Shown here: one piece after another, positions 2,754-21,484 of the stretch
How the letters are laid out: the number at the start of each line of letters is the position of its first letter
Position numbering within the stretch: the first letter of the stretch is position 1
Virus record (IMG/VR): IMGVR_UViG_3300007708_000027
Location: 1-23,072 of that record
DNA from: a virus
Direction: 5' to 3' (one strand)
DNA: 23,072 nt
Notes under the pieces: model-generated
The model's database searches: none
Told to the model about the DNA's origin: nothing
What the model saw: the letters and a program-made list of their open reading frames with translations, nothing else
Translations under genes and position numbers: made by a program

Positions 2754-3419
2754 TTATCCTAGATCATTAGCAAATTTAGATACGTCTGAGTTTCCATTTT
2801 TCATTTCGTATTGTGGCACTAATAATTCAAATCTTCTTAGCTCTTCTGGAGTTGGATTATTTGGATCAACAGCAAACATTTCTTTATAAAAATATTTCTC
2901 TTTAACTAAGAATACGCTTGCAATAGATCGTCTTCCAGATATAACATCAGTTACTGCATGTCTTACTTTGTTTCCAAATATTATTACGCTTCCTTTTTTG
3001 GGTCTAAGTGTAACATCATAGTCTGGGAAAAATATTTCTCCGCCTTCAAATTCTTCTGGGTCATGAAGGTACGCAAGTATCGTGGCGCTAACCTGCTCAT
3101 AAGTTCCATCTGGAAGTGCCATAAAGTCTGTATGTGGGCCGTAGCCTGGGCCTGGGCCCCTGCTGTGTATAAAGGTCGACTTTGCTAACTTATATTTTAC
3201 TGCATTCAAATGCAAATGATTCTTGTACCACACATCTAAACACTTAAATATTGCATCATCTGTAACATCAAGGTATTCCTTGGTGTTAATTCTAGCGGTT
3301 ACCATGTCGTCATGATTTGGTGTCTTTTCCCAATTAGTAGGGTATTGTAATAATTCGTCAGGATTTTCTAGAGCGTCTTCAAAATACCAAACCTCATCTG
3401 ACATCTTTATCGGATTCAT
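2754..3419 (-). CDS. 2OG-Fe(II) oxygenase, prolyl-4-hydroxylase type (2 of 5)
   Basis: This 221-residue dioxygenase shows the complete motif set: H96 and D98 in GPHTDF, H154 in VRHAVTDV and R164 ten residues later. The segment between the triad members reads FEGGEIFFPDYDVTLRPKKG, the typical jelly-roll strand followed by the P-K-G turn. A glycine/proline-rich loop (RGPGPGYG, 87-94) precedes the first His. The N-terminal opening (WYFEDALENPDELL) is a recurring feature of this phage oxygenase group. A short C-terminal extension (residues 180-221) is not part of the fold. It follows the gene at 3441-4073 closely and overlaps nothing. Substrate unknown. Confidence 0.9.
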   Translation of the reverse strand: MNPIKMSDEVWYFEDALENPDELLQYPTNWEKTPNHDDMVTARINTKEYLDVTDDAIFKCLDVWYKNHLHLNAVKYKLAKSTFIHSRGPGPGYGPHTDFMALPDGTYEQVSATILAYLHDPEEFEGGEIFFPDYDVTLRPKKGSVIIFGNKVRHAVTDVISGRRSIASVFLVKEKYFYKEMFAVDPNNPTPEELRRFELLVPQYEMKNGNSDVSKFANDLG

Positions 3420-4074: not shown

Positions 4075-4542
4075 TTAATTCTTCTGTAAGGCTAACTCTA
4101 TTACGTTTTCCATTTCTTCTGGAGTAACATGTGGAGAAATTGCTGTAAATTCAGCATCATTAACAATGAATTTAGTAAAATTCCATGGAACTTCATCAAA
4201 CTCTGCTTTAGAAACTAAATATTTAAATAGCGGATGTGCATCTTCACCATTAACATTAATCTTTGTAGAGATTAAGAAGTCTACTCCATACCTTGTTTGG
4301 CAAAAATCTTTAATATCTTCATCAGTGCCAGGCTCTTGTTCATTAAATTGATTGCATGGGAATCCAATCACTACAAGCCCTCTATTCTCATGCTTTTTGC
4401 TAAGAGCCTGAAGTCCTTCGTACTGAACAGTAAATCCGCAATTGCTTGCAACGTTTACCAATAATAAAGTATTCTCTTTAAATTTTGACAGCTCAACAAT
4501 ATTGCCATTGTTATCTGTAAAACTGTAATCATAAACTGACAT
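4075..4542 (-). CDS. Glutathione peroxidase-family thiol peroxidase
   Basis: This is a cytoplasmic peroxidase that reduces H2O2 or organic hydroperoxides with a Cys, probably recycled by thioredoxin as in most bacterial members. With the ATG at 4542 the protein has 155 residues, normal for the family. Visible motifs are NVASNCGFT (peroxidatic Cys35), FPCNQF (resolving-type Cys plus catalytic Gln) and PWNFTKF (catalytic Trp and Asn), completing the Cys-Gln-Trp-Asn tetrad. The longer reading frame from 4560 is rejected as start because its first codons form the Shine-Dalgarno site (AAGGAG, 6 nt before the chosen ATG). It has its own promoter (4583-4611). Uncommon on phages; fits with ahpCD and thioredoxin nearby. 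Confidence 0.9.
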   Translation of the reverse strand: MSVYDYSFTDNNGNIVELSKFKENTLLLVNVASNCGFTVQYEGLQALSKKHENRGLVVIGFPCNQFNEQEPGTDEDIKDFCQTRYGVDFLISTKINVNGEDAHPLFKYLVSKAEFDEVPWNFTKFIVNDAEFTAISPHVTPEEMENVIELALQKN

Positions 4543-4582
4543 AATAATCTCCTTTTTCATGGCAAAATTGCCTTATATCTAT

Positions 4583-4962: not shown

Positions 4963-4971
4963 ATTATATCA
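4963..4971 (-). promoter_or_regulatory. Extended -10 promoter, leaderless
   Basis: TGA-TATAAT (4963-4971) followed by 6 nt and the ATG at 4956. It overlaps the 3' end of the upstream oxygenase gene; no good -35 is seen. Confidence 0.6.
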
Positions 4972-5544
4972 GTTTTTGTCATAAAAAGAAGTTGGGTGCT
5001 CATATATATAAGTTTGAGTCATGTATCTATTTCCACTTAATATTTCTAACACCTCGTGCTGTTTGTCACTTGGGAAAACTACCATTGAACCAGCTTTTGG
5101 CTTTATGCATAAATCATCATGAATAAAATCAATTTCTCCTCCAGTATAATCATCATTTATATATAGTATAGCGGTTAAAGATGGCTTTACAGGGTTGCCA
5201 TCTTTTTTTACATAGCTATATGCATCGCTATGTGCTGACATTTTAGATCCAGTATTGTACTCTCTAATCAAAAGCCAATCTTGTCCTACATTCTCATCAT
5301 TAAAATTTAATCCGTTGCATGAAGAATATTCTGCCACACAGTCAAAAAATACTTTTATCGCTTTTGAATGCAAATCTTCTCCTTTGCGTAAAAATACAGA
5401 TCTTCCAATTATTGTTTCCCCGCCACCCTTATTGGTATAATACTCCCATTTGTCATCTTGAATACCATCAATTAGTTCATTGGGGTTATCCAAAACATTA
5501 TGCCATTCCCATATTCCATTTTTTTTATTGATTGCCTTATTCAT
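4969..5544 (-). CDS. 2OG-Fe(II) oxygenase, prolyl-4-hydroxylase type (3 of 5)
   Basis: This 191-residue dioxygenase has H105 and D107 (SAHSDA), H163 (KQHEVLEI) and R173 ten residues after, the full iron and 2OG ligand set. YINDDYTGGEIDF (128-140) and KPKAGSMVVFPS (148-159) are the typical strands between the ligands. The beginning WEWHNVLDNPNEL is similar in layout to the oxygenase at 2754-3419, suggesting that the two are paralogues. The start overlaps the small zinc-finger gene at 5537-5665 by 8 bp. Substrate unknown. Confidence 0.9.
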   Translation of the reverse strand: MNKAINKKNGIWEWHNVLDNPNELIDGIQDDKWEYYTNKGGGETIIGRSVFLRKGEDLHSKAIKVFFDCVAEYSSCNGLNFNDENVGQDWLLIREYNTGSKMSAHSDAYSYVKKDGNPVKPSLTAILYINDDYTGGEIDFIHDDLCIKPKAGSMVVFPSDKQHEVLEILSGNRYMTQTYIYEHPTSFYDKN

Positions 5545-6203: not shown

Positions 6204-6670
6204 CTTTTAACCCCGTCCCATGTTCCTATTTTAGTAGTTGTAATCCCATTTTCTTCCCAAAGTCTAATAATGCTTGGATTGTCATCTACCGCATGCTTTA
6301 CATCCCAATACACTTCGATGTGCTCAAGAATATCTTTTTTGACTTCATAGTCTTCTCTATGATCATCATCTTGTCTCATAAATAAGGCATCATGTGGGAC
6401 ATCGTTATTCTTTAGCCATCTAGAAGTTAGAGCCCTATACTTTTCTTTTCTAGCAGTAACTATAATAATATCTAAATCATTACATACCTGCCAGACCATA
6501 TCAACTACATCTTTATGTGGATCACAGCTTATAGAAGCCTTATGAAAAGCATCATAATTTTTCTTAAATGATTCGCTAGACCTATCTTGATTTAGTATGT
6601 GGTGAAGTATTGGATCCACATCAACTAAGGTCCCATCTACGTCAAATATCCAGGCTGGCCTTTTTATCAC
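6200..6670 (-). CDS. HAD phosphatase, polynucleotide 3'-phosphatase type
   Basis: This 156-residue HAD-fold phosphatase matches the phosphatase half of T4 PseT (polynucleotide kinase/3'-phosphatase). Motif I FDVDGTL has D10 as nucleophile and D12 as acid, motif II is VTAR (71-74), a Lys pair lies at 111-112, and motif III is DDNPSI (129-134). The kinase P-loop domain is absent, so it could remove 3'-phosphates from DNA or RNA ends but not add 5'-phosphates. The start is GTG, overlapping the ahpD stop by 4 bp (GTGA). It may serve nucleic-acid repair; another small phosphate substrate cannot be excluded. Confidence 0.8.
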   Translation of the reverse strand: MIKRPAWIFDVDGTLVDVDPILHHILNQDRSSESFKKNYDAFHKASISCDPHKDVVDMVWQVCNDLDIIIVTARKEKYRALTSRWLKNNDVPHDALFMRQDDDHREDYEVKKDILEHIEVYWDVKHAVDDNPSIIRLWEENGITTTKIGTWDGVKR

Positions 6671-7179
6671 GCTGAGAGTATCTTTGCTAATGCATTAATT
6701 GTTGCTGCAATTCTTCCTATGTCACGTAGTTGTTCTACCGTGTATCCTTCTTGCTTTAATGTTTCATAATGTGCTTTAACACAAAAATGACATTTACCAA
6801 CAATAGACGATGCTAATGAATAAGCTTCAAACTTACCTTTGGTTGTGCCACCGTGAGAAGTAATAGCATTCATTCTTAGCTGAGCTGGTAGCCCCTTTAA
6901 GTTTACGTCATCAGCCATTTCAATAAATGGATACCAAACGTTATTCTGTGCCATGATAGCACCAGCAGTAAGGGCAGCATTTTTTTCAACTTCATCATTT
7001 GCATTAGCAGTAATAAAGGCAAGCAGCTTGCCATTGCCTGTTGCAAATGCTGCTGCTATTGAAATATACGTAGCATGCTCTACATCAATAGATGATCTAT
7101 TGATTACAGCATCAAGATTTAATTTGATGTCTTTAGCATATTCTGGAAGAGAATCCTTAAGCTGGTCTACCCATGTCAT
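6667..7179 (-). CDS. ahpD: Alkyl hydroperoxidase AhpD
   Basis: This 170-residue protein of the carboxymuconolactone decarboxylase fold acts as disulfide reductase partner of AhpC in actinobacteria, passing electrons from lipoamide. The proton-relay and redox residues E118, C130, C133 and H137 (GKCHFCVKAH) are at the same positions as in the mycobacterial enzyme, as I recall that numbering. It is therefore full length and should be active. The ATG overlaps the ahpC stop (TAATG), so the two are coupled exactly as in cellular ahpCD operons. Its presence inside a phage-like gene string is unusual and suggests acquisition from the host. Confidence 0.93.
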   Translation of the reverse strand: MTWVDQLKDSLPEYAKDIKLNLDAVINRSSIDVEHATYISIAAAFATGNGKLLAFITANANDEVEKNAALTAGAIMAQNNVWYPFIEMADDVNLKGLPAQLRMNAITSHGGTTKGKFEAYSLASSIVGKCHFCVKAHYETLKQEGYTVEQLRDIGRIAATINALAKILSA

Positions 7180-7715
7180 TATAGAGTTTCTCCACCTAAA
7201 GATCTGTTACATGCACATAGCTCACCAGTTTGTAATGCATCTAGTACACGAAGAGTTTCGTCTGGGTTTCTACCTACATCTAAATTGTTTACAGTTACAT
7301 GCTGAATTGTATTTTCTGGATCAATAATAAATGTTGCACGATATGTAACTCCAGATGGGTGATGTACACCAAGATCGTTAGCAAGCTGATGACCAGTGTC
7401 TGCAAATGACCATGAATTAGTTTTCTTTAGATCTTCATGTGCGTTACGCCATGCAATCTTACAAAATTCATTATCAACCGAACCAGTCATAAGAATGGCA
7501 TCTCTATCATTAAAATCATTTACTAATGCATCATATGCAACAATTTCTGTTGGGCATACAAATGTAAAATCCTTTGGATAAAAAGCAATAATCTTCCACT
7601 TTCCAGGGAAAGAGTCTTGATTTAATACTTCAAAAGAGCTATCTTCATAGCTTAGGGCTCCTGGCTTTACACCAGTAACTGCAAACGTTCCTAACTTATC
7701 TCCTACTGTTTTCAT
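7179..7715 (-). CDS. ahpC: Alkyl hydroperoxide reductase AhpC (2-Cys peroxiredoxin)
   Basis: This 178-residue peroxiredoxin reduces H2O2, organic peroxides and peroxynitrite. The peroxidatic C54 lies in FTFVCPTE with the preceding T51. The C-terminal GELCACNR supplies C167 and C169, the three-Cys arrangement characteristic of actinobacterial AhpC, whose reductant is AhpD. A strong ribosome site (AGGAG, 5 nt) precedes the ATG. The gene starts 31 nt after tRNA-Lys with no terminator between, so it is probably read from the tRNA promoter at 7904-7932. With ahpD, the peroxidase at 4075 and thioredoxin at 14176 it forms a peroxide-defence set. Confidence 0.95.
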   Translation of the reverse strand: MKTVGDKLGTFAVTGVKPGALSYEDSSFEVLNQDSFPGKWKIIAFYPKDFTFVCPTEIVAYDALVNDFNDRDAILMTGSVDNEFCKIAWRNAHEDLKKTNSWSFADTGHQLANDLGVHHPSGVTYRATFIIDPENTIQHVTVNNLDVGRNPDETLRVLDALQTGELCACNRSLGGETL

Positions 7716-7745
7716 TTTTCTCCTATATAGTTTATCTTACACGTG

Positions 7746-7818
7746 TGTCCCCAGATGGGCTCGAACCATCGACCCGCAGATTAAAAGTCTGCTGCTCTAC
7801 CAGCTGAGCTATAGGAAC
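7746..7818 (-). tRNA. tRNA-Lys (anticodon TTT)
   Basis: The acceptor stem GTTCCTA pairs with TGGGGAC with wobble pairs. The D arm contains GCTCAG-GGTAGAGC, the anticodon arm GCAGA-CTTTTAA-TCTGC gives anticodon TTT, and the T arm has GGTTCGAGCCC. CCA is not encoded. It follows tRNA-Asn by a single nucleotide. Confidence 0.93.
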
Positions 7819-7819
7819 G

Positions 7820-7892
7820 CTGTCCCACCTGGCCTCGATCCAGGGACATTCGAATTAACAGTTCGACGCTCTACCAACTGAGCTATGGGACA
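7820..7892 (-). tRNA. tRNA-Asn (anticodon GTT)
   Basis: A perfect 7-bp acceptor stem (TGTCCCA/TGGGACA), D arm GCTCAGTTGGTAGAGC, anticodon arm TCGAA-CTGTTAA-TTCGA (anticodon GTT) and a 5-bp T stem CCTGG/CCAGG are all present. CCA is not encoded. A promoter lies just upstream (7904-7932). Confidence 0.94.
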
Positions 7893-7938: not shown

Positions 7939-8592
7939 TTAACCTATTGGCTTATAATTAATTAAGTTTAAAACACGATCAGAATCAAAGCCTTCAAAAG
8001 CTCTTGTCTCATCTGAAGTTGCCCAAAAAATTATTGCATATTTATTGCCAGATGTAATTTTTTTGCCCCCGTGCCATAAATCGGCTGGGAACAAAGACAG
8101 TTCTCTTGCTTTGGGCTTAAAGCAAAGCCCTCCCATAGAGTCTTCATACAATGGGAAAAATGATTCAGGAGTAAACTCTTCTAGGAATGTTGCTTCTCCC
8201 CCCTCATAATTATCATTTAGGTATAAAACCCCACTATAAGATAAAGAAGAAAATTCTCCATGAACATCCTGGTGTACTCTTAGCTGTATATCTTCGCTAA
8301 GCTTTGTTAATGAAAACCCATAAAAATATTGAGGATCTTCTGAAGGCAGTAGCTCTTCCTGTGCTTTCATAAATTTATCTGAATATTTTAAACAAATTTC
8401 TTCTATTTCTTTAAACATTGTGGCTGGCTTTTCATCTGGGAAAACTGCTCTGACTGCTAAGCCTTTGTTAAATGCAACTCCAATTCTATGTCTAAACATA
8501 GATGTGTCTGAATAATTTTTATCTATCCAGTCTATAAAAAAATCAGCATCTTCTTTGCTTATAAAATCTTCAACTACCTTTAATTTATCCAT
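7939..8592 (-). CDS. 2OG-Fe(II) oxygenase, prolyl-4-hydroxylase type (4 of 5)
   Basis: The 217-residue dioxygenase has H107 and D109 (RVHQDV), H174 (LWHGGKKI) and K184 ten residues later. Lysine rather than arginine as the 2OG-carboxylate ligand is as in classical prolyl 4-hydroxylases; the other four proteins here use Arg. YLNDNYEGGEATF (124-136) precedes an insertion of about 20 residues before the KPKARELSLFP strand. The N-terminus (VVEDFISKEDADFFIDWI) closely parallels the start of the second domain of the neighbouring double oxygenase, so the two are probably duplicates. It overlaps that gene by 8 bp and is the last gene of the operon before the tRNA promoter. Confidence 0.9.
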   Translation of the reverse strand: MDKLKVVEDFISKEDADFFIDWIDKNYSDTSMFRHRIGVAFNKGLAVRAVFPDEKPATMFKEIEEICLKYSDKFMKAQEELLPSEDPQYFYGFSLTKLSEDIQLRVHQDVHGEFSSLSYSGVLYLNDNYEGGEATFLEEFTPESFFPLYEDSMGGLCFKPKARELSLFPADLWHGGKKITSGNKYAIIFWATSDETRAFEGFDSDRVLNLINYKPIG

Positions 8593-9733
8593 TGTTTATT
8601 CCTCTTTCTTTTATATTTGTTGCCCATATAGGCATTGCTATTCTTGTACCATTTATAATCTCTGTTATTTCATGCAACTTTGTGGATTCAAAAATAACAA
8701 TACTAAGCTTTTCTGGGTCTATTGTTATATCTAAATCTAAAAACTTCAAGAACCCTCCATCAAAATCATTATTTAAATATATAACTCCGCTTCTAAATAA
8801 ATGTTCTGCGTCAATATGATTATCTACGTGTGCTGGCAGCCTAGTACCCTCTCCAAGCATGGTTAACCACTGTGCTGTTAAGAACAGATCTTTATCCTTA
8901 AACAGATTGATACACTCTAATAAAAACTTGTCAGAATACTTTGTTAATAAATCTATTATCTCTGTATGATTAGCAAAAGAATGGATTTCTGGCACATGGG
9001 ATTCATACCTAAATCTATTATTTATCTTAGCCTTTTCTGGGGTATAAAATTTTTCATCATTTAAATAGTTTTTTTGTATGTAATCTATTAGTATATCGGC
9101 ATCTTCCTGTGTAATAAAATCTTTTATGACATAAACCTTTAAATCTTTTTCTTTATCGCCAATTATCTTTGTTTCACATTCTGGCATAATGTCTATTAAT
9201 ATATGAACTCTATCATATTCGCTATTGTTGTCTACACTATGAAGCTTAAGGTTATTTATTTCATAACACTTACCTTCCTCCATATGTATTTCTTCACCGC
9301 CTACAGTGTAAGATACCTTATCATTTGTTATTAATGGTATGTGAAATCTTCTTACTGAAGATAAATAATCTCCACTATCCTTATGCACAAAAACTTTGCT
9401 GTTAGCATTTAGTTTTATTAAAAGTATCCTGGCAGATTGGCCCACCATCCTGTCCTCTAATTCTTTTACAATTGGATATACAAGATCATACATATCTTTA
9501 TCTAAAGTTTCTTTTGAAAATGAAGTTCCTTTTTCCCAATACAGGGAGGAGTTTTGAATAATATATGTATTTGTATTTACGTGTGGATTAGGCCTGCCTT
9601 CGTACACAGTACTTTGTCTAGACGTATCTATCTCCCACTCTTGAGAAAATTTTTCAACCCTGGTTTTTATATCTTCTATATTAAAAGATTTAAAATAAGA
9701 AAAATTAAAATCACGCTCAACTTTATTTTTCAT
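8585..9733 (-). CDS. Two-domain dioxygenase: Asp/Asn beta-hydroxylase fused to prolyl-4-hydroxylase type (5 of 5)
   Basis: This 382-residue protein contains two separate 2OG-Fe(II) domains. The N-terminal one (about 100-182) reads like the aspartyl/asparaginyl beta-hydroxylase family: H117 and D119 (FVHKDSGD), RRFHIPLITN (128-137), then H165 with R175. The C-terminal one (about 198-375) is prolyl-hydroxylase-like: H302 and D304 (PAHVDN), YLNNDFDGGFLKF (319-331), H354 and R364. Both keep every ligand, so two sequential or alternative oxidations are possible. It sits between a sulfotransferase (11-bp overlap) and a single-domain oxygenase (8-bp overlap), suggesting a three-enzyme modification pathway. 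Substrate unknown. Confidence 0.85.
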   Translation of the reverse strand: MKNKVERDFNFSYFKSFNIEDIKTRVEKFSQEWEIDTSRQSTVYEGRPNPHVNTNTYIIQNSSLYWEKGTSFSKETLDKDMYDLVYPIVKELEDRMVGQSARILLIKLNANSKVFVHKDSGDYLSSVRRFHIPLITNDKVSYTVGGEEIHMEEGKCYEINNLKLHSVDNNSEYDRVHILIDIMPECETKIIGDKEKDLKVYVIKDFITQEDADILIDYIQKNYLNDEKFYTPEKAKINNRFRYESHVPEIHSFANHTEIIDLLTKYSDKFLLECINLFKDKDLFLTAQWLTMLGEGTRLPAHVDNHIDAEHLFRSGVIYLNNDFDGGFLKFLDLDITIDPEKLSIVIFESTKLHEITEIINGTRIAMPIWATNIKERGINNG

Positions 9734-10538
9734 TTATTTCTCTTTCTCTTACCATAGAATAAACCTTGTAGTCTATTTCATTATTTTCTAGTATCTTTTC
9801 TTTATCATTATCTGTCAACATTTCAACAAGATCTTTTGTAGTATATATTTTGCCCTTATACAGTGTGCTCGATGAGTTGGAAATCTTTTTTGAGTTTAAA
9901 CTTATGTCAATACCGTGATTATCTTTAAACCATTTGGATATAGCAACATAATGTGAGCCTATATCGTCTACTGTATTTACAATACTAAATGACTCTATTC
10001 TGTTTTTTGCATTTTCAAAAGACGTCTTATCATTTTTAATAAACCAGTTGAATGCATTTCCTAGCTCAAAATTATGCTTCTTATATATATCATCTAAATT
10101 TTTTTCAAACTCTACAACATTTTGAAATACTACTTCATCTGTTGGATTGCATATATGTCTAGACTGGTAGTTGTTATGATCAAAAAATCCCTCATCTTTA
10201 AACAAGTAGTACTTGAGCTTATCAAAATAGTTGTCTATTGATCGGTATCTTGGTGTATCAAGATCATTTCTTCCATGTATAAAATTAAAATAAGATACTC
10301 TAGCCTCTATTGGGTTTCTTACTAAGCAAGAAACAGATATTCCTGGAAACTTTTCTATTGGGTAAGTGCCAAGGTGTCCAGCTATGTATACTTCGTTAGA
10401 TATAGGATAGTCATTAGGATATTGTGTGGTAGTATAACTTGAAATATTATTTTTATTAAGCTCTGATTTTAATTCAGAAGACAATCCTTTACCAGCCGTT
10501 TTGGGCACGTGCAAAAAATAAAGTCTATTGCTATTCAC
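9723..10538 (-). CDS. Sulfotransferase-like protein
   Basis: This PAPS-dependent sulfotransferase-like protein would move a sulfuryl group to a hydroxyl or amine of a sugar or other acceptor. The 5'-phosphosulfate loop is FLHVPKTAGKGL (K13 with the GTG start), and the 3'-phosphate motif LVRNPIEARVSYF has R74 and S82 separated by eight residues, as in the family. The start is taken as GTG at 10538. It forms a GTGA overlap with the upstream stop and has AGGA 6 nt before it; an ATG 8 codons further upstream lacks a ribosome site. Downstream it overlaps the double oxygenase gene by 11 bp. The acceptor is unknown. Confidence 0.8.
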   Translation of the reverse strand: MNSNRLYFLHVPKTAGKGLSSELKSELNKNNISSYTTTQYPNDYPISNEVYIAGHLGTYPIEKFPGISVSCLVRNPIEARVSYFNFIHGRNDLDTPRYRSIDNYFDKLKYYLFKDEGFFDHNNYQSRHICNPTDEVVFQNVVEFEKNLDDIYKKHNFELGNAFNWFIKNDKTSFENAKNRIESFSIVNTVDDIGSHYVAISKWFKDNHGIDISLNSKKISNSSSTLYKGKIYTTKDLVEMLTDNDKEKILENNEIDYKVYSMVREREINEK

Positions 10539-10756
10539 TCTTTGTCCTTTAGTCTCATCCACTTACCATACTTATTAGGATCTTTGCTTCCTATGTATTC
10601 CTGCCCAGTCTCTAAATCAATTAGTAGCCATTTGCCAGGAGCTTTTGTATGAACGGTTAGATCTACAGCTTTATCATACTCTGGAACTTGTGTACCTTGA
10701 TACATTTTAGGCAAAAATGTGTACGCATTGTCTAAAAGCTTTCTAAATTTTTCCAT
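10535..10756 (-). CDS. Hypothetical protein (73 aa)
   Basis: This 73-residue protein has a C-terminal half (KAPGKWLLIDLETGQEYIGS, then YGKWMRL) that looks like a small beta-hairpin domain and recurs, as I recall, in phage hypothetical proteins. A GGAG lies close (2 nt) to the ATG. It overlaps the sulfotransferase gene by the GTGA junction, so it starts the sulfotransferase-oxygenase-oxygenase run. No function can be assigned. Confidence 0.6.
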   Translation of the reverse strand: MEKFRKLLDNAYTFLPKMYQGTQVPEYDKAVDLTVHTKAPGKWLLIDLETGQEYIGSKDPNKYGKWMRLKDKE

Positions 10757-11737: not shown

Positions 11738-11955
11738 TATTTAACCCTGCTTCCATATTTAGCCCATACTCTTTCGTGCAAAAAGTATCCGAGCATCTCG
11801 CATGCTGTATAGATTATAGCAAATGTGCCAGCGTATTCCCAGTGGGCTTCGCCAGTAATTGCTTTTTCAAAAAAATATACCATTGTTCCAACAAAGCCAA
11901 TGTGTACTGCTGGCCAGGTAAAAGACTTATACATGCTTTTTTTATTAGATTCCAT
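11737..11955 (-). CDS. DUF2061-like membrane protein
   Basis: This 72-residue protein (ATG at 11955) has a short basic N-terminus, two hydrophobic helices and the ending GYFLHERVWAKYG. YKSFTW at the start and LHERVW at the end are hallmarks of the DUF2061 family of small inner-membrane proteins of unknown function. A TTG four codons upstream is a possible start, but GGGGA 5 nt before the ATG favours the ATG, which overlaps the monooxygenase gene by 11 bp. Confidence 0.7.
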   Translation of the reverse strand: MESNKKSMYKSFTWPAVHIGFVGTMVYFFEKAITGEAHWEYAGTFAIIYTACEMLGYFLHERVWAKYGSRVK

Positions 11956-12739
11956 TGTGTTCCCCAATCATTTCTTTTATCAAGTTGTGTACTGCTCCCT
12001 TATTTTTATCTTGTGAGTGATTACTAATTAATAAATCAGTTACTCCTAAATCCTTTAAGCTGTTTAATTGAATTTTAACGCTATCTGCATTACCGCATAC
12101 TGTCCATTCGCTTGATCCTGGCTTTTTAGATAGCATTTCTTCTAACTCTGCCTCTGAATCATTTATAATCACGCAAACTGATAGCATTTGCTTTTCATTC
12201 TTTACAAACTCAGGATTGTCATATAATTGCCTATGAAGGCCAAGCATTCCAAGGTGAGTGGCATTATATTTTCTAGCCAAAAGCCTAGTTTGGCTTGAAT
12301 GACCACCCATAACTATTTCAGATACAGTGTTATTTGATAATTCAAGAAACTTTGCTAGCCAATCATCTGTGTATTTTAACCTTTTTTCTTGTGTGTCTAA
12401 ATCTTCCCCAAACCAAATCATATCTTCTACGGATGTTTCGTCCTCCTGCAAATCTCCAGATACAATATTTAGCATAATCCTATTAGGAGATATTGTATGA
12501 AAAGCTCTGCATATCATTGCACAGTATTCTGGACTAATTGCATACGTTCTAATTGCTGGCATGTACTTAAATTTATGATTAAGGTCCAGAGCTCTTGCTG
12601 CTTTTACCCAATTATCATCTATCTTTGAATGATAAACAAGTAACATAGATTCATATCCTACGTCATCAACTATATTAGAAATAGTTTCAAGATGCTTAAT
12701 GCTAGCATCTAGACCACGATCAAACCAATGAAATCTCAT
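11945..12739 (-). CDS. Luciferase-like monooxygenase (LLM family)
   Basis: This 264-residue TIM-barrel protein belongs to the flavin (FMN or F420)-dependent luciferase-like superfamily. The best landmarks are RTYAISPEYCA (64-74), NRIMLNIVSGD (86-96), similar to the GR-x-NVV-GGD segment of alkanesulfonate monooxygenases, and VMGGHSSQT with the following RKYNATHL. It is shorter than cellular SsuD (about 380 residues) and may lack part of the C-terminal region, so activity and substrate are uncertain. The start is supported by a -10 TAGAAT exactly 6 nt before the ATG, just beyond the terminator at 12764-12795. Uncommon in phages; probably host-derived. Confidence 0.8.
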   Translation of the reverse strand: MRFHWFDRGLDASIKHLETISNIVDDVGYESMLLVYHSKIDDNWVKAARALDLNHKFKYMPAIRTYAISPEYCAMICRAFHTISPNRIMLNIVSGDLQEDETSVEDMIWFGEDLDTQEKRLKYTDDWLAKFLELSNNTVSEIVMGGHSSQTRLLARKYNATHLGMLGLHRQLYDNPEFVKNEKQMLSVCVIINDSEAELEEMLSKKPGSSEWTVCGNADSVKIQLNSLKDLGVTDLLISNHSQDKNKGAVHNLIKEMIGEHNGI

Positions 12740-12806: not shown

Positions 12807-13967
12807 TTACTTAACTAAGATAACCTTAGCCTTTGGGTTCTTTGCATTCCACTTTGTGGCTAGTGCATTGAATGACTTCTTTAAAGAAGCAAGTGCCTTA
12901 GCATTATCTGCTGTTAGCTTAGCAATAGCTGTATCCTTAGCAAGGACTACTGCATCTGAAGCAGCTTTTGCATCAGCAAGAGCCTTAGCAGAAGCAGCCT
13001 TCTCTGCTGCAAGAGCAGTTGCAGAAGCAGCCTTCTCTGCTGCAAGAGCAGCGTCTGAAGCAGCCTTGGCAGCAACAGCATCTGAAGCAGCCTTTACAAC
13101 TGCAGCATCTGAAATTGCTTTAGCAGCAAGTGCTGCATCCTTAGCAGCAGTTTGTGCTGCAAGTTCTGATACAAGATCACGAACTGTAATCTCTGCAAAA
13201 GGTGCTAGTGCACGAGCAGGTAATCCAACTACATCTGCAGTTGTTGCATCTGATGATGTTGTTGGGCTGAATGTAATTAGTGAGCGTGTTCCAGTTGCTG
13301 GAAGTGTTGCAGTAAACTTTGCAACTCCAAAATCTGAAAGTGTAGCACCAGTTGTTACTGTTGCTGTATCCATAACTGCTGTTGAAGCAAATACGGTTGC
13401 AGTAATTGACTTGGCAGATACCTTGTTTCCAAATGTATCAGTTGCAGTTACTGAAATATCCTGCTTTGTGCCAGCAGCACCAGCAGTAGGAGCTGATACC
13501 GTAAGAGTATTAATCTTACCAGCAGTTCCCTGTACGTAGTATGTAAGTGTTGTTCCGCCATTGGTGATTACAACTGTACCAATTGCTGTTGTCTTTGTAT
13601 AGACATAAAATGTTGCTGTTGTGCCTGTACCAGTTGCAACTGTCAAAGATGATGATCCTGACGCTGCTCCAATTGGTGCGGCTGTAGTGTGTAGAGCAGA
13701 AACGATTGTTGCGTTTGTTGCTACTACTGAAACGTTTGTTCCAACATCAACTGTTGCAATAAACTTTAGTGCATCTGCAGCATCAACTGTGTTGTCTGCA
13801 GGTACTGGCAATGAGGCAGGCGTTGCGATTGCTGATGCCGTAGTGTTTGCTACAGTGTCAAGCGATACAGCGACTGTCATTACAGCAGCACTTGCAGGTG
13901 TTGCTACCATTGTGCCCAAAGTCATGGCTGCAACCATGGCTAGTGCGATTTTCTTAAATGAGTTCAT
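12807..13967 (-). CDS. Secreted Ala-rich protein with Ig-like body and coiled-coil tail (386 aa)
   Basis: Residues 1-28 are a classical signal peptide (basic start, hydrophobic core, cleavage after TPASA). Residues 30-260 are rich in Ala, Thr, Val and Ser and look like repeated beta-sandwich domains, including an Ig/invasin-like stretch (KQDISVTATDTFGNKVSA). Residues 270-350 are an Ala-rich helical coiled coil with AAEKAASA and ADAKAASDA repeats, and the end (residues 360-386) is basic (WNAKNPKAKVILVK). Base composition is richer in GC than the neighbours. It resembles surface/S-layer proteins of planktonic actinobacteria and may be host-derived. AAGGAG precedes the ATG. A cell-surface or decoy role is inferred. 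Confidence 0.7.
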   Translation of the reverse strand: MNSFKKIALAMVAAMTLGTMVATPASAAVMTVAVSLDTVANTTASAIATPASLPVPADNTVDAADALKFIATVDVGTNVSVVATNATIVSALHTTAAPIGAASGSSSLTVATGTGTTATFYVYTKTTAIGTVVITNGGTTLTYYVQGTAGKINTLTVSAPTAGAAGTKQDISVTATDTFGNKVSAKSITATVFASTAVMDTATVTTGATLSDFGVAKFTATLPATGTRSLITFSPTTSSDATTADVVGLPARALAPFAEITVRDLVSELAAQTAAKDAALAAKAISDAAVVKAASDAVAAKAASDAALAAEKAASATALAAEKAASAKALADAKAASDAVVLAKDTAIAKLTADNAKALASLKKSFNALATKWNAKNPKAKVILVK

Positions 13968-14014: not shown

Positions 14015-14185
14015 TTAGTGTAGTTCATGTACCTTAACATGAAACGAGCAGGGATCTCCGCCTTCATCCCACTCTTGCATTTCTTCATCTGACATTGGTG
14101 GACCATCATGTGTATCGCAAAATACATCTGATATCCACCCTTTGTCATATCCAAAGCTCATCCATTCATCAAAACCTAGATCCAT
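14015..14185 (-). CDS. Small conserved phage-type protein (56 aa)
   Basis: This 56-residue acidic protein begins MDLGFDEWMSFGYDKGWIS and contains FCDTHDGPPMSDEE and GGDPCSFHVKV. The layout D/EW-x-GY-KGW, C-THDG-P, then E-G-DPC is, as I recall, typical of a small protein family in actinobacteriophages with no known function. Its two Cys and two His could bind metal. The ATG overlaps the thioredoxin gene end by 10 bp and has GGAAGAG upstream. An internal Met (residue 9) is a possible alternative start. Confidence 0.65.
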   Translation of the reverse strand: MDLGFDEWMSFGYDKGWISDVFCDTHDGPPMSDEEMQEWDEGGDPCSFHVKVHELH

Positions 14186-14478
14186 TCGGATATCTCTTCC
14201 AGGAACTTATGTTTTGGCATAGCTCCCTTAGTTCTCTTTACCTCTTTACCGTCTTTAAAAACGATAACTGTAGGTAAAGAAATAACATTGTATTTATCTG
14301 CACTGAATGTATTTTCATCTGCATCTATTTTTCCAATCCATACATTATATTCTGATGCTACTTCATCAAGTATGGGAGAAAATCTTTTGCATGGACTACA
14401 CCATTCAGCCCAGAAATCTACAAGGACTACATGATGAGAGCCAATAACTTCATCGAAATTACTGTCAGTTACAATCAT
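14176..14478 (-). CDS. trxA: Thioredoxin
   Basis: This 100-residue cytoplasmic dithiol oxidoreductase has the active site WAEWCSPCK (C27, C30), D21 in the buried position before it, and the cis-Pro motif SLPTVIVFKDGK. The dipeptide between the cysteines is Ser-Pro instead of the usual Gly-Pro, which can shift redox potential. The start overlaps the stop of the upstream small gene (TAATG). It could recycle the peroxidase at 4075 and provide electrons to a phage ribonucleotide reductase, as phage thioredoxins often do. Confidence 0.92.
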   Translation of the reverse strand: MIVTDSNFDEVIGSHHVVLVDFWAEWCSPCKRFSPILDEVASEYNVWIGKIDADENTFSADKYNVISLPTVIVFKDGKEVKRTKGAMPKHKFLEEISEWI

Positions 14479-14684
14479 TACTTATCCTTTAGTGCCTCTG
14501 CTGCTTCATTGAAGCGAATCATAAAATTTTGGATTATCCAAAATGTTGTTTCACCCGCATTTTTAGCCATTGCCTCAGATGCTTCTGGTGTTCTATCTTC
14601 TTGTGCTAGACCATTGTACCATTTCTGATACAGTTCCTGCCCAAGATCTTTTATAATTCCATCTAGAACTGTAATTTCAGCCAT
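14478..14684 (-). CDS. Hypothetical helical protein (68 aa)
   Basis: The product is an acidic, all-helical protein of 68 residues (starts MAEITVLDGIIKDLGQELYQ). The start is placed at 14684, where the ATG overlaps the subtilase stop by 8 bp. A longer reading from 14720 would run deep into the subtilase tail and lacks a ribosome site. It is coupled to thioredoxin by TAATG. I recognise no family; small helical proteins like this occur widely in phages. Confidence 0.55.
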   Translation of the reverse strand: MAEITVLDGIIKDLGQELYQKWYNGLAQEDRTPEASEAMAKNAGETTFWIIQNFMIRFNEAAEALKDK

Positions 14685-15822
14685 TAAGTTTTGCCATCCA
14701 TGCGGCTTTAGTTGCTGCAAGCTTGTCCTGAGCAGCTTTTAAATCAATTGCATACTGTTGTTCTGCTGCTGCAATACCCGCATTTACCTCTAGCTTTAAT
14801 GCTGCTGCCTTTGCATCTGCTAGTGCTTTTGCATCCGCTGCTGCTTTTGCATCTGCCAGCGCCTTCGCTGCAGCATCCGCTGCTGCTGAATTTGTAGGGG
14901 TAGCACTTACTGCATTAGAAAGTGTAATCAGTTTTTTAAATGTGCCCTGTCTACCAACAGTATTTACCGCATTAGCTTTCATACTATCAATTAATTTATT
15001 TCCAGATTGTCCAGATGCAGTCATTAATTTTAAATATGTTGCTGCTGCGACCTGCGTTGCAGAAGATGTACCAGCAATATTTTTAGAAATGTTTCCTGGA
15101 CCTACTGCAGGCATGTTGCCTAGAGCAAAGAAATCTAGGAGTGATGAGTCGTTATTGCTATAAGACGCAATTTCTCCAATTTGATCTACTGCTCCGACTG
15201 CAACTGTTTCTGGAATACATGAAGGCCAATCAATTCGTGAGTAATCACGTGAATTGCCTGCTGCAGAGAAAACTGGAATAGACATTGCGTTTAACTGTTG
15301 AATTGCAGATATTGTTCTTGGGAATATTGGACAATACTGTGTACCAGCCTTACCAAGCAAACCGCTGCTTCCTTGTGAAAGAGATACAGCCTTTACGTTA
15401 TATTTTGTTGCATTGTCTCTTAGCCATGCAAGTGCTGCAGAAATTGTTGATTCTCCAGTTGGCTTTCGCAATCCTGTAGAAGTATTTGCAATGATCTTAA
15501 TAAAAAGTATTTTAATGTTTGGGTTAGATGAAACTGCAGTAGTAGCCATAAATGTTCCATGGTCAAAACCATTTTTTGTAATTAGATCTGCTGGCATTGA
15601 TGCAGAGCCAGATCCTTCTTGAAAGTTAGTTCCATTTGGACATAACGCCCACTCAAGAATACAAACCTCTCCAACAATCTTTCCTTGAAGACTTGGAACA
15701 GATGTATCGATTGCTGTGTCTAGGATTGCTAGAACTGGTGCGTTTGCATCAGATGCCTGTGAAATTGCTACAGGTGATAGAAGTGATAAAGTAAGTACCG
15801 CCGTGATTAGTTTATTTTTCAT
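14677..15822 (-). CDS. Secreted subtilisin-family serine protease with coiled-coil tail
   Basis: This 381-residue secreted protease has a signal peptide (1-23, cleavage near SQA-SD) and an S8-family catalytic domain (about 28-305). D35 lies in LAILDTAID, H88 in GFDHGTFMA, oxyanion N190 in SAAGNS and nucleophile S253 in AGTSSATQ. All four key residues are present, so it should be active. Residues 315-381 are an Ala-rich coiled coil (ALADAKAAADA repeats, then AWMAKLNG) similar to the tail of the secreted protein at 12807. There is no long pro-domain. The gene has its own promoter, leaderless with 6 nt between TATACT and ATG. It could degrade host surface proteins, aid lysis or exclude competitors. 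Confidence 0.88.
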   Translation of the reverse strand: MKNKLITAVLTLSLLSPVAISQASDANAPVLAILDTAIDTSVPSLQGKIVGEVCILEWALCPNGTNFQEGSGSASMPADLITKNGFDHGTFMATTAVSSNPNIKILFIKIIANTSTGLRKPTGESTISAALAWLRDNATKYNVKAVSLSQGSSGLLGKAGTQYCPIFPRTISAIQQLNAMSIPVFSAAGNSRDYSRIDWPSCIPETVAVGAVDQIGEIASYSNNDSSLLDFFALGNMPAVGPGNISKNIAGTSSATQVAAATYLKLMTASGQSGNKLIDSMKANAVNTVGRQGTFKKLITLSNAVSATPTNSAAADAAAKALADAKAAADAKALADAKAAALKLEVNAGIAAAEQQYAIDLKAAQDKLAATKAAWMAKLNG

Positions 15823-17740: not shown

Positions 17741-18047
17741 CTGGCTTTCCCTCCAACTCGACTCGTACCCCATATGATTCTAGGATCTTTTTAACCATCT
17801 CGATATAATCTATAACTCTCATTCTCATACTTCCATCGTACTGTGAAAAATTGTTTTCATATAGTCTTATTGCTAAAAATTCAGGATACTTTACAATATC
17901 CATCTGTAAGTCGTGTGCAGGGCTTTTGAGCTCTCTGACTTTCTGTGCCATTTCTTTTGTATAAAAAACTGGTTTGTTTGCCTCACCAGTCCATTCATTA
18001 ATACCATACTTAAAGTGATCTTTATCTTTATTTATAAAGTTAGCCAT
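17724..18047 (-). CDS. Hypothetical protein (107 aa)
   Basis: This is a 107-residue mixed-charge protein with a helical C-terminal half (MRVIDYIEMVKKILESYGV) and no cysteines, signal or membrane segment. AGGGA precedes the ATG by 5 nt, and the start overlaps the WhiB-like gene end by 8 bp. It is therefore translationally linked to the regulator, which makes a partner role possible. No family recognised. Confidence 0.6.
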   Translation of the reverse strand: MANFINKDKDHFKYGINEWTGEANKPVFYTKEMAQKVRELKSPAHDLQMDIVKYPEFLAIRLYENNFSQYDGSMRMRVIDYIEMVKKILESYGVRVELEGKPGGRTR

Positions 18048-18348
18048 GTAATCCCTTTATCTTTTTGTTTATCTCTTTTGTCTTGTGTGCATTTTTTGAT
18101 TTATCTGGACTGCCAGAACTAAGATAAACTCCGCCCCAAACTCCATAGTTGTCTGACTCTACGCCATACTTATAGCACATTGCTATTACTGGGCAAGACA
18201 TGCAAGCCTGATCAATACTTTTTGCTACGTTAACATCTGTTTCGTATGTATCAAAAAACAGATTTGTTTCCATCCCAAGGCACAGAGCTAAGTCCTGCCA
18301 TTGAAGCAGGTCTTTATCTAATCCAAGACTATTTAAAATTTTTGACAT
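18040..18348 (-). CDS. WhiB-like iron-sulfur transcription factor
   Basis: This 102-residue member of the WhiB family, known only from actinobacteria and their phages, is the strongest host marker in the window. The four cluster-binding cysteines are C23 (ALCLG), C49, C52 (CMSCP) and C58 (AMCYKYG), binding a [4Fe-4S] cluster. GVWGG (69-73) is the family's turn that contacts sigma factor. A basic tail (KTKEINKKIKG) follows, as needed for DNA contact. Phage members can act as dominant regulators of host WhiB targets such as septation. It overlaps its neighbours by 20 bp upstream and 8 bp downstream. Confidence 0.93.
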   Translation of the reverse strand: MSKILNSLGLDKDLLQWQDLALCLGMETNLFFDTYETDVNVAKSIDQACMSCPVIAMCYKYGVESDNYGVWGGVYLSSGSPDKSKNAHKTKEINKKIKGLHG

Positions 18349-19152: not shown

Positions 19153-19382
19153 TACTTATCCTCTTTTCTTAGCGGGATTGTTATTAGCCAGACTATTGTT
19201 ACTGCTAATACTGCAATTCCAACTATGTCTCTTGCTGATCCCGTCAAAGTTAACCATGCAATAAAGAAGCCTAGGAGGGTGAATGCCTGTGCAATTAATT
19301 CCATTCCTGCATCTTTAAACCATTTAATTAATCCTTTTATAGCTTTACCTATTAGATTAAAGGCTTTTTTGATTATCTTCAT
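19152..19382 (-). CDS. Small membrane protein, possible holin partner (76 aa)
   Basis: A basic amphipathic N-terminal helix (KKAFNLIGKAIKGLIKWFKD, 5-24) is followed by two hydrophobic helices (about 28-46 and 50-70) and a charged tail. The stop of the PA14-protein gene overlaps its start, and its stop overlaps the next membrane gene. The pair of coupled small membrane proteins could be holin and antiholin, or anchors for the PA14 protein. Not proven by sequence. Confidence 0.55.
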   Translation of the reverse strand: MKIIKKAFNLIGKAIKGLIKWFKDAGMELIAQAFTLLGFFIAWLTLTGSARDIVGIAVLAVTIVWLITIPLRKEDK

Positions 19383-21484
19383 TTGTTCCTCCTCATGACT
19401 GCCCCTGCAATTTGTGATGCAATGACCACTGGGACAATTACTTCTTGTGCTTTTTCTCTCTGATCATCTGTCATATCCATACCTAATTCAGAGAAATTAG
19501 ATAGGAGTTCTGTAACATCCACTTCAAATACCGCTCCAAGTGGGTCTGCCAAAAATGCTTCTGTTTGTACTTCTGTTACTGCATCTGCTAATGTAAATGG
19601 CATTGGTGTTTCTCCTGCCTCCGCCTCTCTATCTGAGAACTCAACAAATGCTTCAGCAAGTGCTGGGTTAGACTTCATCTGCTCAGCAATCTGTGCAACC
19701 TCTGAAGGCTTAATACCAAGATCACTTGCTACCTCTGCTTTTGCTTCTTGTGTCAATGCTCTAAGTGTTTGGCTAACTGCTGTTACTTGTTCAGGGGAAA
19801 GAGTAACCAACTTATTGTCACTGCTTGTAAGGTTAGCAATAACATTAGATAGATCTTCTTCTGTTCCCGTTCCTTTTTCAGGAACAAGTGCTGCTAATAC
19901 TTCATCAGTAATTTCTACATCTGGTTCATTCCAAGGGTTCTCTTCTGGCTTTGGTTCTGGTCCAGGTTCTGGAGATGGTTCTGGGGCAGGCTCCTCAGTT
20001 GGTTCTGGGCTTGGCTCAGGAGTGGGTGGCTCCTCTGGGGTAGGCTCAGGTGTGGGCTGGTCTGTAGGGTCTACTGTAGGCTCTGGAGAAGGCTCTGGGG
20101 TAGGAGGCTCTTCTGCTGTAGGTTCAGGGCTTGGTTCTGGTGTAGGAGGCTCTTCTGGTGTTGGCTCTGGACTTGGCTCTGGGGTAGGTGGCTCTTCAGC
20201 AGTTGGTTCAGGACTTGGCTCTGGGGTAGGCTGATTGGCTGCAGCATTGGCTGCTGCTTGAGCAATAGCAGATTGAATTTCTCTTTGTGATTGTTCATCA
20301 TAGTAACGCCATGCGTTATCAATTGCACTGTTGACATTATTAATTGCTTGGTCATATGCATCTTCAGCATTATTTTTATTTTGTAATGCCGTTGCAACAT
20401 TTAAAACTGAGTTATTGTATTCGTTTGTTTTATTAGTTAAGGTTTGATTGTAACCGTTAAGTGTTGACGCTGCTTGGTTATAAACATTTAACTTATCATT
20501 GTATACATCCTGTGCTGCGTTCTTTGCAGCAAGTGCATTGTTGTAGTCGTTGGTTTGTTCCTGAGTTGCTCCTGGCCCAGAAGAAAATGTATTTAAATTA
20601 CAACTAAAGTTTTGTCCCCATACTCTTGGGTTTCCAGCATAGTCACATCCTGCACCAGTCCATCCTCCAGGAATACCCCATCCAAGATGATAAGATCCAG
20701 GGCCTCCACCGTTGTACCACCATATCTCTACATCAAAAACCTTATCTATTGTTACATCATATACAGGAGAGTAATTACTCCAAGTTGTTCCTTGCTCTAC
20801 CCAGTTGTCTATGGCCAATGATCCGTCAATATACATTCTAAAACCATCATCTGTATATCCTGCAAAGTAGGCCTGGGTAAACCATTCTGGTACTGTTATC
20901 TGTCCAGTAAACTTAACAATAAAATTTTCATACCGATTTCCGCACACTGGAAGTTGCATAGAGTTTGAGTTCCAAGTGCCACTACATAGTAATTGATTTG
21001 TGGCTGCTTGCCCATTTACTCTAATTAAACTGTATACCTCATATGCCAAACCTGCTCCACCAGCACTATTTAAGGCTTGCTGTGCTGTTTGTAAATTAAT
21101 ATTGGCTATTCCCAGTGCATCGTATGCATTATTCTTATTCTCTAAAGAAGTGGCTACTGTTACTGTTTGTCCATCTACTGCTGCTTGGGCTAAGTCTTTT
21201 TCTTCAAGTGCCGTGGCTTTTGCGTCAAGGGAGTCATCATATAGGTCAGAGGTCTGAGTCTGGGTTTCTTTTGCAGATAGGGCAAGATCATACTTGTTTT
21301 CTGCCTCTTCAATTAAGGATATAAATTCATCCTTGTATCCTAGGTCATCAATGCTATTATTTAGCTCTTCAATTTCTTGAGCGGCCAAGCTTAGGGGGTC
21401 ATCAGAATAAGCGGGTGACATAAAAAGCCATCCAAATGCAAGCATTGTGGCTGCTAATATTCTAAATAATTTATTCCTTTTCAA
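19379..21484 (-). CDS. Secreted PA14-domain protein with PEP-repeat linker (701 aa)
   Basis: Domains in order are: signal peptide (1-27, cleavage near AYS-DD); coiled coil (30-140); PA14-type carbohydrate-binding beta domain (about 148-275, with TDDGFRMYIDG at 211-221 and DVEIWWYNGGG); second coiled coil (305-415); a Pro-Glu repeat linker (419-513, units of PEPSPEPT and EEPPT); and an acidic helical C-terminal domain (520-701) ending in a hydrophobic stretch and RRNK. The TTG start has AGGGG 7 nt upstream. PA14 domains bind glycans, so adhesion to host surface polysaccharide is a fair inference. The protein could be a virion fibre or an anchored surface protein. The Pro-Glu repeat shows strong internal DNA repetition. 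Confidence 0.8.
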   Translation of the reverse strand: MKRNKLFRILAATMLAFGWLFMSPAYSDDPLSLAAQEIEELNNSIDDLGYKDEFISLIEEAENKYDLALSAKETQTQTSDLYDDSLDAKATALEEKDLAQAAVDGQTVTVATSLENKNNAYDALGIANINLQTAQQALNSAGGAGLAYEVYSLIRVNGQAATNQLLCSGTWNSNSMQLPVCGNRYENFIVKFTGQITVPEWFTQAYFAGYTDDGFRMYIDGSLAIDNWVEQGTTWSNYSPVYDVTIDKVFDVEIWWYNGGGPGSYHLGWGIPGGWTGAGCDYAGNPRVWGQNFSCNLNTFSSGPGATQEQTNDYNNALAAKNAAQDVYNDKLNVYNQAASTLNGYNQTLTNKTNEYNNSVLNVATALQNKNNAEDAYDQAINNVNSAIDNAWRYYDEQSQREIQSAIAQAAANAAANQPTPEPSPEPTAEEPPTPEPSPEPTPEEPPTPEPSPEPTAEEPPTPEPSPEPTVDPTDQPTPEPTPEEPPTPEPSPEPTEEPAPEPSPEPGPEPKPEENPWNEPDVEITDEVLAALVPEKGTGTEEDLSNVIANLTSSDNKLVTLSPEQVTAVSQTLRALTQEAKAEVASDLGIKPSEVAQIAEQMKSNPALAEAFVEFSDREAEAGETPMPFTLADAVTEVQTEAFLADPLGAVFEVDVTELLSNFSELGMDMTDDQREKAQEVIVPVVIASQIAGAVMRRNK
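19945..20230 (-). repeat. Internal tandem repeats encoding the Pro-Glu linker
   Basis: About ten units encoding PEPSPEPT/EEPPT fill this stretch. The plus strand shows repeated GGCTCTGG and GGAGGCTCTTCTG words. Such arrays expand and contract by slippage, so the copy number may vary between strains and may be mis-assembled. Confidence 0.85.

Follow-up and report, generated by a model that had tools for sequence, protein, structure and literature searches.

What do a sulfotransferase-like protein and three 2OG-Fe(II) oxygenase domains, encoded by three overlapping phage genes, do together? The genes lie in a 23,072-bp virus record (the window, meaning the whole stretch of DNA analysed; GC 37%) in which the minus strand codes nearly every gene. 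The original prediction described three genes that overlap by 11 and 8 bp and are read in the order AST-FUS-OXY3, and the ORF coordinates agree: AST and FUS share positions 9723-9733 (11 bp), and FUS and OXY3 share positions 8585-8592 (8 bp). The relatives that we compared are metagenomic fragments, and the cassette is known here from sequence alone; 80 of 178 AST loci and 80 of 291 FN loci were taken into the collection counts. The features of the locus are as follows.

7745-7892, minus strand: tRNA-Lys and tRNA-Asn, the downstream boundary of the cassette, after OXY3
7939-8592, minus strand: OXY3, a third 2OG-Fe(II) oxygenase (217 aa, ATG start)
8585-9733, minus strand: FUS, a double 2OG-Fe(II) oxygenase (382 aa, ATG start)
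8585-9139, minus strand: FC domain of FUS (PF13640, prolyl-hydroxylase-like), ligands H302, D304, H354 and R364
9171-9733, minus strand: FN domain of FUS (PF05118), ligands H117, D119, H165 and R175
9723-10538, minus strand: AST, a sulfotransferase-like protein (271 aa, GTG start)
10293-10319, minus strand: 3'-PB motif of AST, residues 74-82, RNPIEARVS
10374-10376, minus strand: H55 of AST, candidate catalytic base
10488-10511, minus strand: 5'-PSB loop of AST, residues 10-17, HVPKTAGK, predicted to bind PAPS
10535-10756, minus strand: 73-aa gene with a 4-bp overlap between its stop and the start of AST, found in 8/8 close relatives

The possibility that the 73-aa gene encodes a peptide substrate was dropped, since a homologue in L071 is located apart from AST; the gene is probably a neighbour of the cassette rather than a member of the module.

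We named AST a sulfotransferase on the basis of Pfam matches within its family, a profile match to ST-B (a second phage sulfotransferase, described below) and the invariant residues of its 5'-PSB and 3'-PB motifs. PF03567 (Sulfotransfer_2) was matched by 2 of 20 diverse family members, with a best E value of 7.2e-6, and the member in L034 scored 26.7 bits against a cut-off of 22; the window copy had no Pfam match. Profile-profile comparison (hhalign) of AST with ST-B gave a probability of 94% (E 1.2e-7) over the PAPS-binding half, and ST-B itself clearly belongs to PF03567 (E 4.5e-9 and 8.1e-7). Both PAPS motifs, H-x-PKT-x-G and R-x-P...S, were present in 37/37 dereplicated family members among the matches listed, and in this set H10, P12, K13, T14 and G16 of the first motif, R74, P76 and S82 of the second, and H55, which we infer to be the catalytic base, were all invariant. 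AST is thus predicted to be a PAPS-dependent sulfotransferase of a divergent phage subfamily, a call that is remote for the window copy. The family resembles Sulfotransfer_2 in its two motifs and its family-level match and differs from typical members in its divergence, with the window copy falling under detection. Bacterial relatives of AST showed merely 20-40% identity over short stretches, and none were found among 50,697 annotated GenBank phage records. Profile searches of the PDB returned chance matches only, the window's own record contained no PF00685 match, and an AlphaFold2 model built from a shallow alignment (pLDDT 38) was uninformative on the fold.

FUS had been read as an Asp/Asn beta-hydroxylase-type domain fused to a prolyl-hydroxylase-type domain, with all ligands present. 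The fusion and its ligands were borne out: residues 98-183 match PF05118 (E 2.4e-12; 47.4 bits against a curated cut-off of 22.6), residues 291-371 match PF13640 (E 5.3e-9; 37.4 bits against a curated cut-off of 27), and FN and FC each carry the full metal ligands and a 2OG-binding basic residue (R175 and R364, respectively). These ligands were unvarying among dereplicated relatives (49/49 for FN and 20/20 for FC, among the matches listed). The specific assignment of FN did not hold. Human AspH, which acts on protein Asp/Asn, has a two-His metal site without a carboxylate ligand, whereas FN retains D119, the pattern of proline hydroxylases. Because this aspartate ligand is kept, 'Asp/Asn beta-hydroxylase' is here the name of a Pfam family and not a substrate. 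The best solved-structure match of FN was L-proline cis-4-hydroxylase (4p7w; E 6.9e-6), and its core also matched proline-3-hydroxylase (1e5r; E 0.036), with the full His-x-Asp...His and Arg set. Unlike these enzymes, which act on free proline, FN is without their C-terminal region. The FUS model (pLDDT 62) was usable as a fold hint only, with low global TM-scores and many generic cupins; its top Foldseek matches include proline hydroxylase, AspH and the viral collagen prolyl hydroxylase vCPH of Paramecium bursaria chlorella virus 1 (5c5t/5c5u). The latter match is consistent with a prolyl-hydroxylase-type 2OG fold in FUS, although vCPH is a single domain from a eukaryotic virus and has no known sulfotransferase link.

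OXY3 is a paralogue of FC (about 29% identity, cross-matches of about 1e-20). It matched the phage 2OG oxygenase family phrog_61 (E 1.8e-15), and its PF13759 match was sub-threshold. The key residues of OXY3 are H107, D109, H174 and K184, of which the first three were invariant in 19/19 dereplicated relatives among the matches listed; the 2OG-binding residue alternates between K and R, the sole variation among them. For the cassette genes, dN/dS against relatives was 0.06-0.17 once one OXY3 comparison, which was saturated, had been excluded. These values, together with the invariant catalytic residues, indicate that the enzymes are under purifying selection that keeps them active, as predicted from their sequences. 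We also observed that two PHROG families that carry the name 'DNA endonuclease (V)', phrog_2297 and phrog_274, have matches to the 2OG oxygenase domains found here, as do cyanophage genes annotated in the same way; the name is probably wrong.

In close relatives (60-86% identity), gene order and overlaps were kept in 8/8 cases. Synteny in these phages extends well past the cassette, and the informative cases are therefore the divergent phages (35-50% identity), in which the gene order and overlaps of the cassette recur. Recurrence in both groups argues that the arrangement is more than chance. Rather than being found separately in relatives, the genes of the trio co-occur, in the following arrangements.

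AST-[FN+FC]-OXY3: divergent phages
AST-FN-FC-OXY3, with FUS as two separate genes in the same order: L071, L125
AST-FN-OXY3: L146
AST-FN: L032, L127, L134, L151
OXY3 relocated upstream: L067, L075
FN-APS kinase-AST: L157, L166

A sulfotransferase lay directly before FN in 39 of 47 dereplicated phage FN genes among the matches listed (26 AST and 13 ST-B); in 7 of the others AST was slightly downstream, and only the FN gene of L238 was without either sulfotransferase. By contrast, among the 60 remaining 2OG oxygenase genes of these loci just one was so placed (Fisher p 5e-20 with kinship ignored; phylogenetic non-independence inflates the linkage counts). OXY3 was within 3.5 kb of AST and FN for 18/18 dereplicated genes among the matches listed. 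Six of 37 dereplicated AST genes had no FN inside 3.5 kb, two of them with FN farther away, which suggests that AST is able to act without FN. The constant core is therefore a sulfotransferase plus FN, and FC and OXY3 are optional. The trio of the original prediction is a conserved, selected module, but it is merely one arrangement among several.

A profile search with FN only drew in phages without an adjoining AST, and the gene directly upstream in these phages was ST-B; the idea that lone FN genes have no sulfotransferase was rejected on this ground. Because ST-B was defined from the neighbours of FN, its own 13/13 co-occurrence with FN is circular; its Pfam identity, unlike that count, is not. 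On the FN tree the type of partner sulfotransferase changed at least five times, which indicates that the pairing outlasted replacement of the sulfotransferase. ST-B belongs to a second module type, in which ST-B, FN and a fusion of an APS-kinase-like domain to an HxGH nucleotidyltransferase follow one another, often in overlapping genes.

L046:4758-6654, L244:5398-7310 and L240:5408-7843: second module type
L223:5420-6558: second module type, kinase absent

The N-terminal half of the fusion, whose gene is often 3' of FN and overlaps it, matched PF01583 (E 7.4e-15; 55.7 bits against a cut-off of 21.1), covering profile positions 4-90 of 152 only, and scored 57.6 bits against NCBIfam apsK, under the cut-off of 138.7; its C-terminal half resembles NMN adenylyltransferase. 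As the match is partial, we call it APS-kinase-like and go no further. The gene was present in 28 of 38 records, including G001, G003 and G004 of the window's clade, and was found neither in the 23-kb window nor in the 120-kb ST-B/FN record G032. It is a possible source of PAPS for the phage module. The same phages also contain further small sulfotransferase-like genes, mostly with sub-threshold Pfam matches.

L263:13106-13705 and 14657-15265, L172:2288-2923 and L023:9979-10500, minus strand: small sulfotransferase-like genes

The pairing also occurs in cells. The FN profile gave four matches in 296 actinobacterial genomes, and three of the four are fusions of PF05118 (N-terminal) to a PF13469 sulfotransferase (Sulfotransfer_3, C-terminal) in one polypeptide.

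L268:583-2046, L269:1-2004 and L270:1-2004, minus strand: PF05118-sulfotransferase fusions

Like the phage core, these proteins pair a PF05118 hydroxylase with a sulfotransferase; they differ in being single polypeptides of cellular genomes, in their sulfotransferase family and in having no FC or OXY3. They support independently that PF05118 and sulfotransferase activities belong together. We found no report of a function for them in the literature.

The linkage of sulfotransferase and FN, the APS-kinase-like neighbour and the cellular fusions make hydroxylation followed by O-sulfation the best reading, and on balance we lean towards the cassette being a phage-encoded, PAPS-dependent hydroxylation-sulfation module. 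Such a chemistry had been proposed for the trio, and the ST-B swap, the APS-kinase-like gene beside FN and the actinobacterial fusions strengthen it. FN would hydroxylate an amino-acid-like position of the substrate using O2, Fe(II) and 2-oxoglutarate, and AST (or ST-B) would then move the sulfuryl group of PAPS to that hydroxyl or a nearby one. FC and OXY3, where present, may put further hydroxylations onto the same substrate, and the APS-kinase-like fusion elsewhere in these phages may help to supply PAPS. The target would be a polypeptide or a glycan that is secreted, part of the virion or exposed on a surface, not a free metabolite. Sequence supports the enzyme classes well; the order of the steps, the shared substrate and the activity are what we infer from it. 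A broader proposal, that phages generally carry a writer pair placing sulfated hydroxy-amino acids on virion, secreted or surface proteins, with swappable sulfotransferases and their own PAPS supply, is tentative and we think it doubtful.

Hydroxylation and sulfation might instead fall on the same phage-encoded or host-surface molecule with no sequence between them, the sulfotransferase using pre-existing hydroxyls (glycan, Tyr or Ser) and the oxygenases acting elsewhere. We consider this possible but unlikely. It would fit the AST genes without FN in L034 and L175, whose neighbours are tail-fibre genes and either a sugar epimerase (L034) or a PF11397-type GlcNAc transferase (L175), as well as the FC and OXY3 complement, which differs among lineages; however, the almost constant presence of a sulfotransferase directly adjoining FN and the existence of PF05118-sulfotransferase fusions in cells both favour coupled steps. 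It seems rather improbable that the genes tailor a small molecule, a hydroxylated and sulfated metabolite of amino-acid or nucleoside-like kind comparable to the products proposed for jumbo cyanophage halogenase/2OG clusters. Such a role has a published cyanophage precedent (PMC7824862), the nearest structures to FN (4p7w, 1e5r and 7v4f) have substrates that are either small intermediates of biosynthesis or free amino acids, and a flavin halogenase adjoins FN in ST-B phages, but the genes that we read in the window and in G001 showed no core biosynthetic enzyme, and the halogenase was present in 3/23 records only, none of them in the window's clade. That the genes are mere neighbours, co-inherited in one accessory region with no joint pathway, is very improbable: synteny in close relatives does reach well outside the cassette and these phages are rich in 2OG oxygenases (with as many as 12 PF13640 matches in one record), but adjacency survives 35-50% identity, gene fission, relocation of OXY3 and the replacement of AST by ST-B, and the control rate was just 1/60. 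A role in DNA modification was also considered and set aside, as we found nothing to connect the genes with the modification of nucleotides or DNA.

The nearest described phage systems are the clusters of jumbo cyanophage S-SSM6a, which contain an amino-acid halogenase, 2OG oxygenases, cupins and methyltransferases and were proposed to decorate a capsular glycan or make a secondary metabolite (PMC7824862). The cassette resembles them as a phage-encoded set of hydroxylating enzymes and differs in its hosts and in its PF05118-sulfotransferase pair, of which no counterpart is described for those clusters; the word 'sulfotransferase' is absent from the text of PMC7824862. The PF04820 halogenase, which with a carbamoyltransferase makes up the cyanophage cluster core, was found neither in the window nor in its clade. 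Our literature search, outside which much of the subscription literature lies, found no description of a phage hydroxylase-sulfotransferase module, in line with the initial impression that no such phage pathway had been described. Taken singly, the enzymes belong to known kinds, and the modular pairing of hydroxylase and sulfotransferase in phages is the new part. Judged by its sequences, this is a real, conserved and undescribed modification cassette. Many phage 2OG oxygenases have no role assigned to them, and a conserved partner enzyme, a likely cofactor gene and a cellular fusion here give one class of these a testable chemistry (+16 then +80 Da). If the target is a virion or surface protein, the post-translational modification would be a kind so far undescribed in phages and a possible means of altering adsorption, stability or superinfection.

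The surroundings of the cassette contain hints to host and target. A WhiB-like gene in the window (18040-18348, read by eye) suggests an actinobacterial host, since whiB serves as a pointer to such hosts in the literature (PMC6802176); aquatic actinobacteria are probable hosts, at phylum level at most. One actinobacterial MAG searched for the phage peroxiredoxin gave no match. In G001, a 2OG oxygenase island lies within a block of tail-fibre genes. On one side it adjoins an fn3 protein, which itself lies downstream of an Mtd_N-type protein; on the other is an S74-chaperone spike that includes a short collagen-like segment. This island, two AST contexts and the secreted-looking proteins of the window are hints to the target, none of them decisive; it is conceivable that the PA14-domain protein is a prolyl-hydroxylase substrate.

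L264:14146-18469 (G001, about 54.1-58.5 kb): 2OG oxygenase island
L034:2865-6780: AST relative without FN, sugar epimerase, tail-fibre genes
L175:297-2813: AST relative without FN, PF11397 GlcNAc transferase, 2OG oxygenase, tail-fibre genes
12807-13967 and 14677-15822 of the window: secreted-looking proteins
19379-21484 of the window: PA14-domain protein with a signal-peptide-like start and long PTPEPSPEP repeats, secreted-looking by eye

Some related phages have flavin halogenase genes of the tryptophan type near FN (PF04820, E about 1e-100; L244:7562-9103 and L172:4152-5702; also G032, G029 and G036). The window itself encodes three additional PF13640 2OG oxygenases (1327-1929, 2754-3419 and 4969-5544) and, as read by eye, glutathione peroxidase, AhpD-like, peroxiredoxin and thioredoxin genes (4075-4560, 6667-7715 and 14176-14478). 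The peroxiredoxin-AhpD pair had no match in L001, L003 or L006, though flanking genes were retained on both sides. A luciferase-like monooxygenase gene (11945-12739; PF00296, slightly under the cut-off) stays near the cassette even in distant phages.
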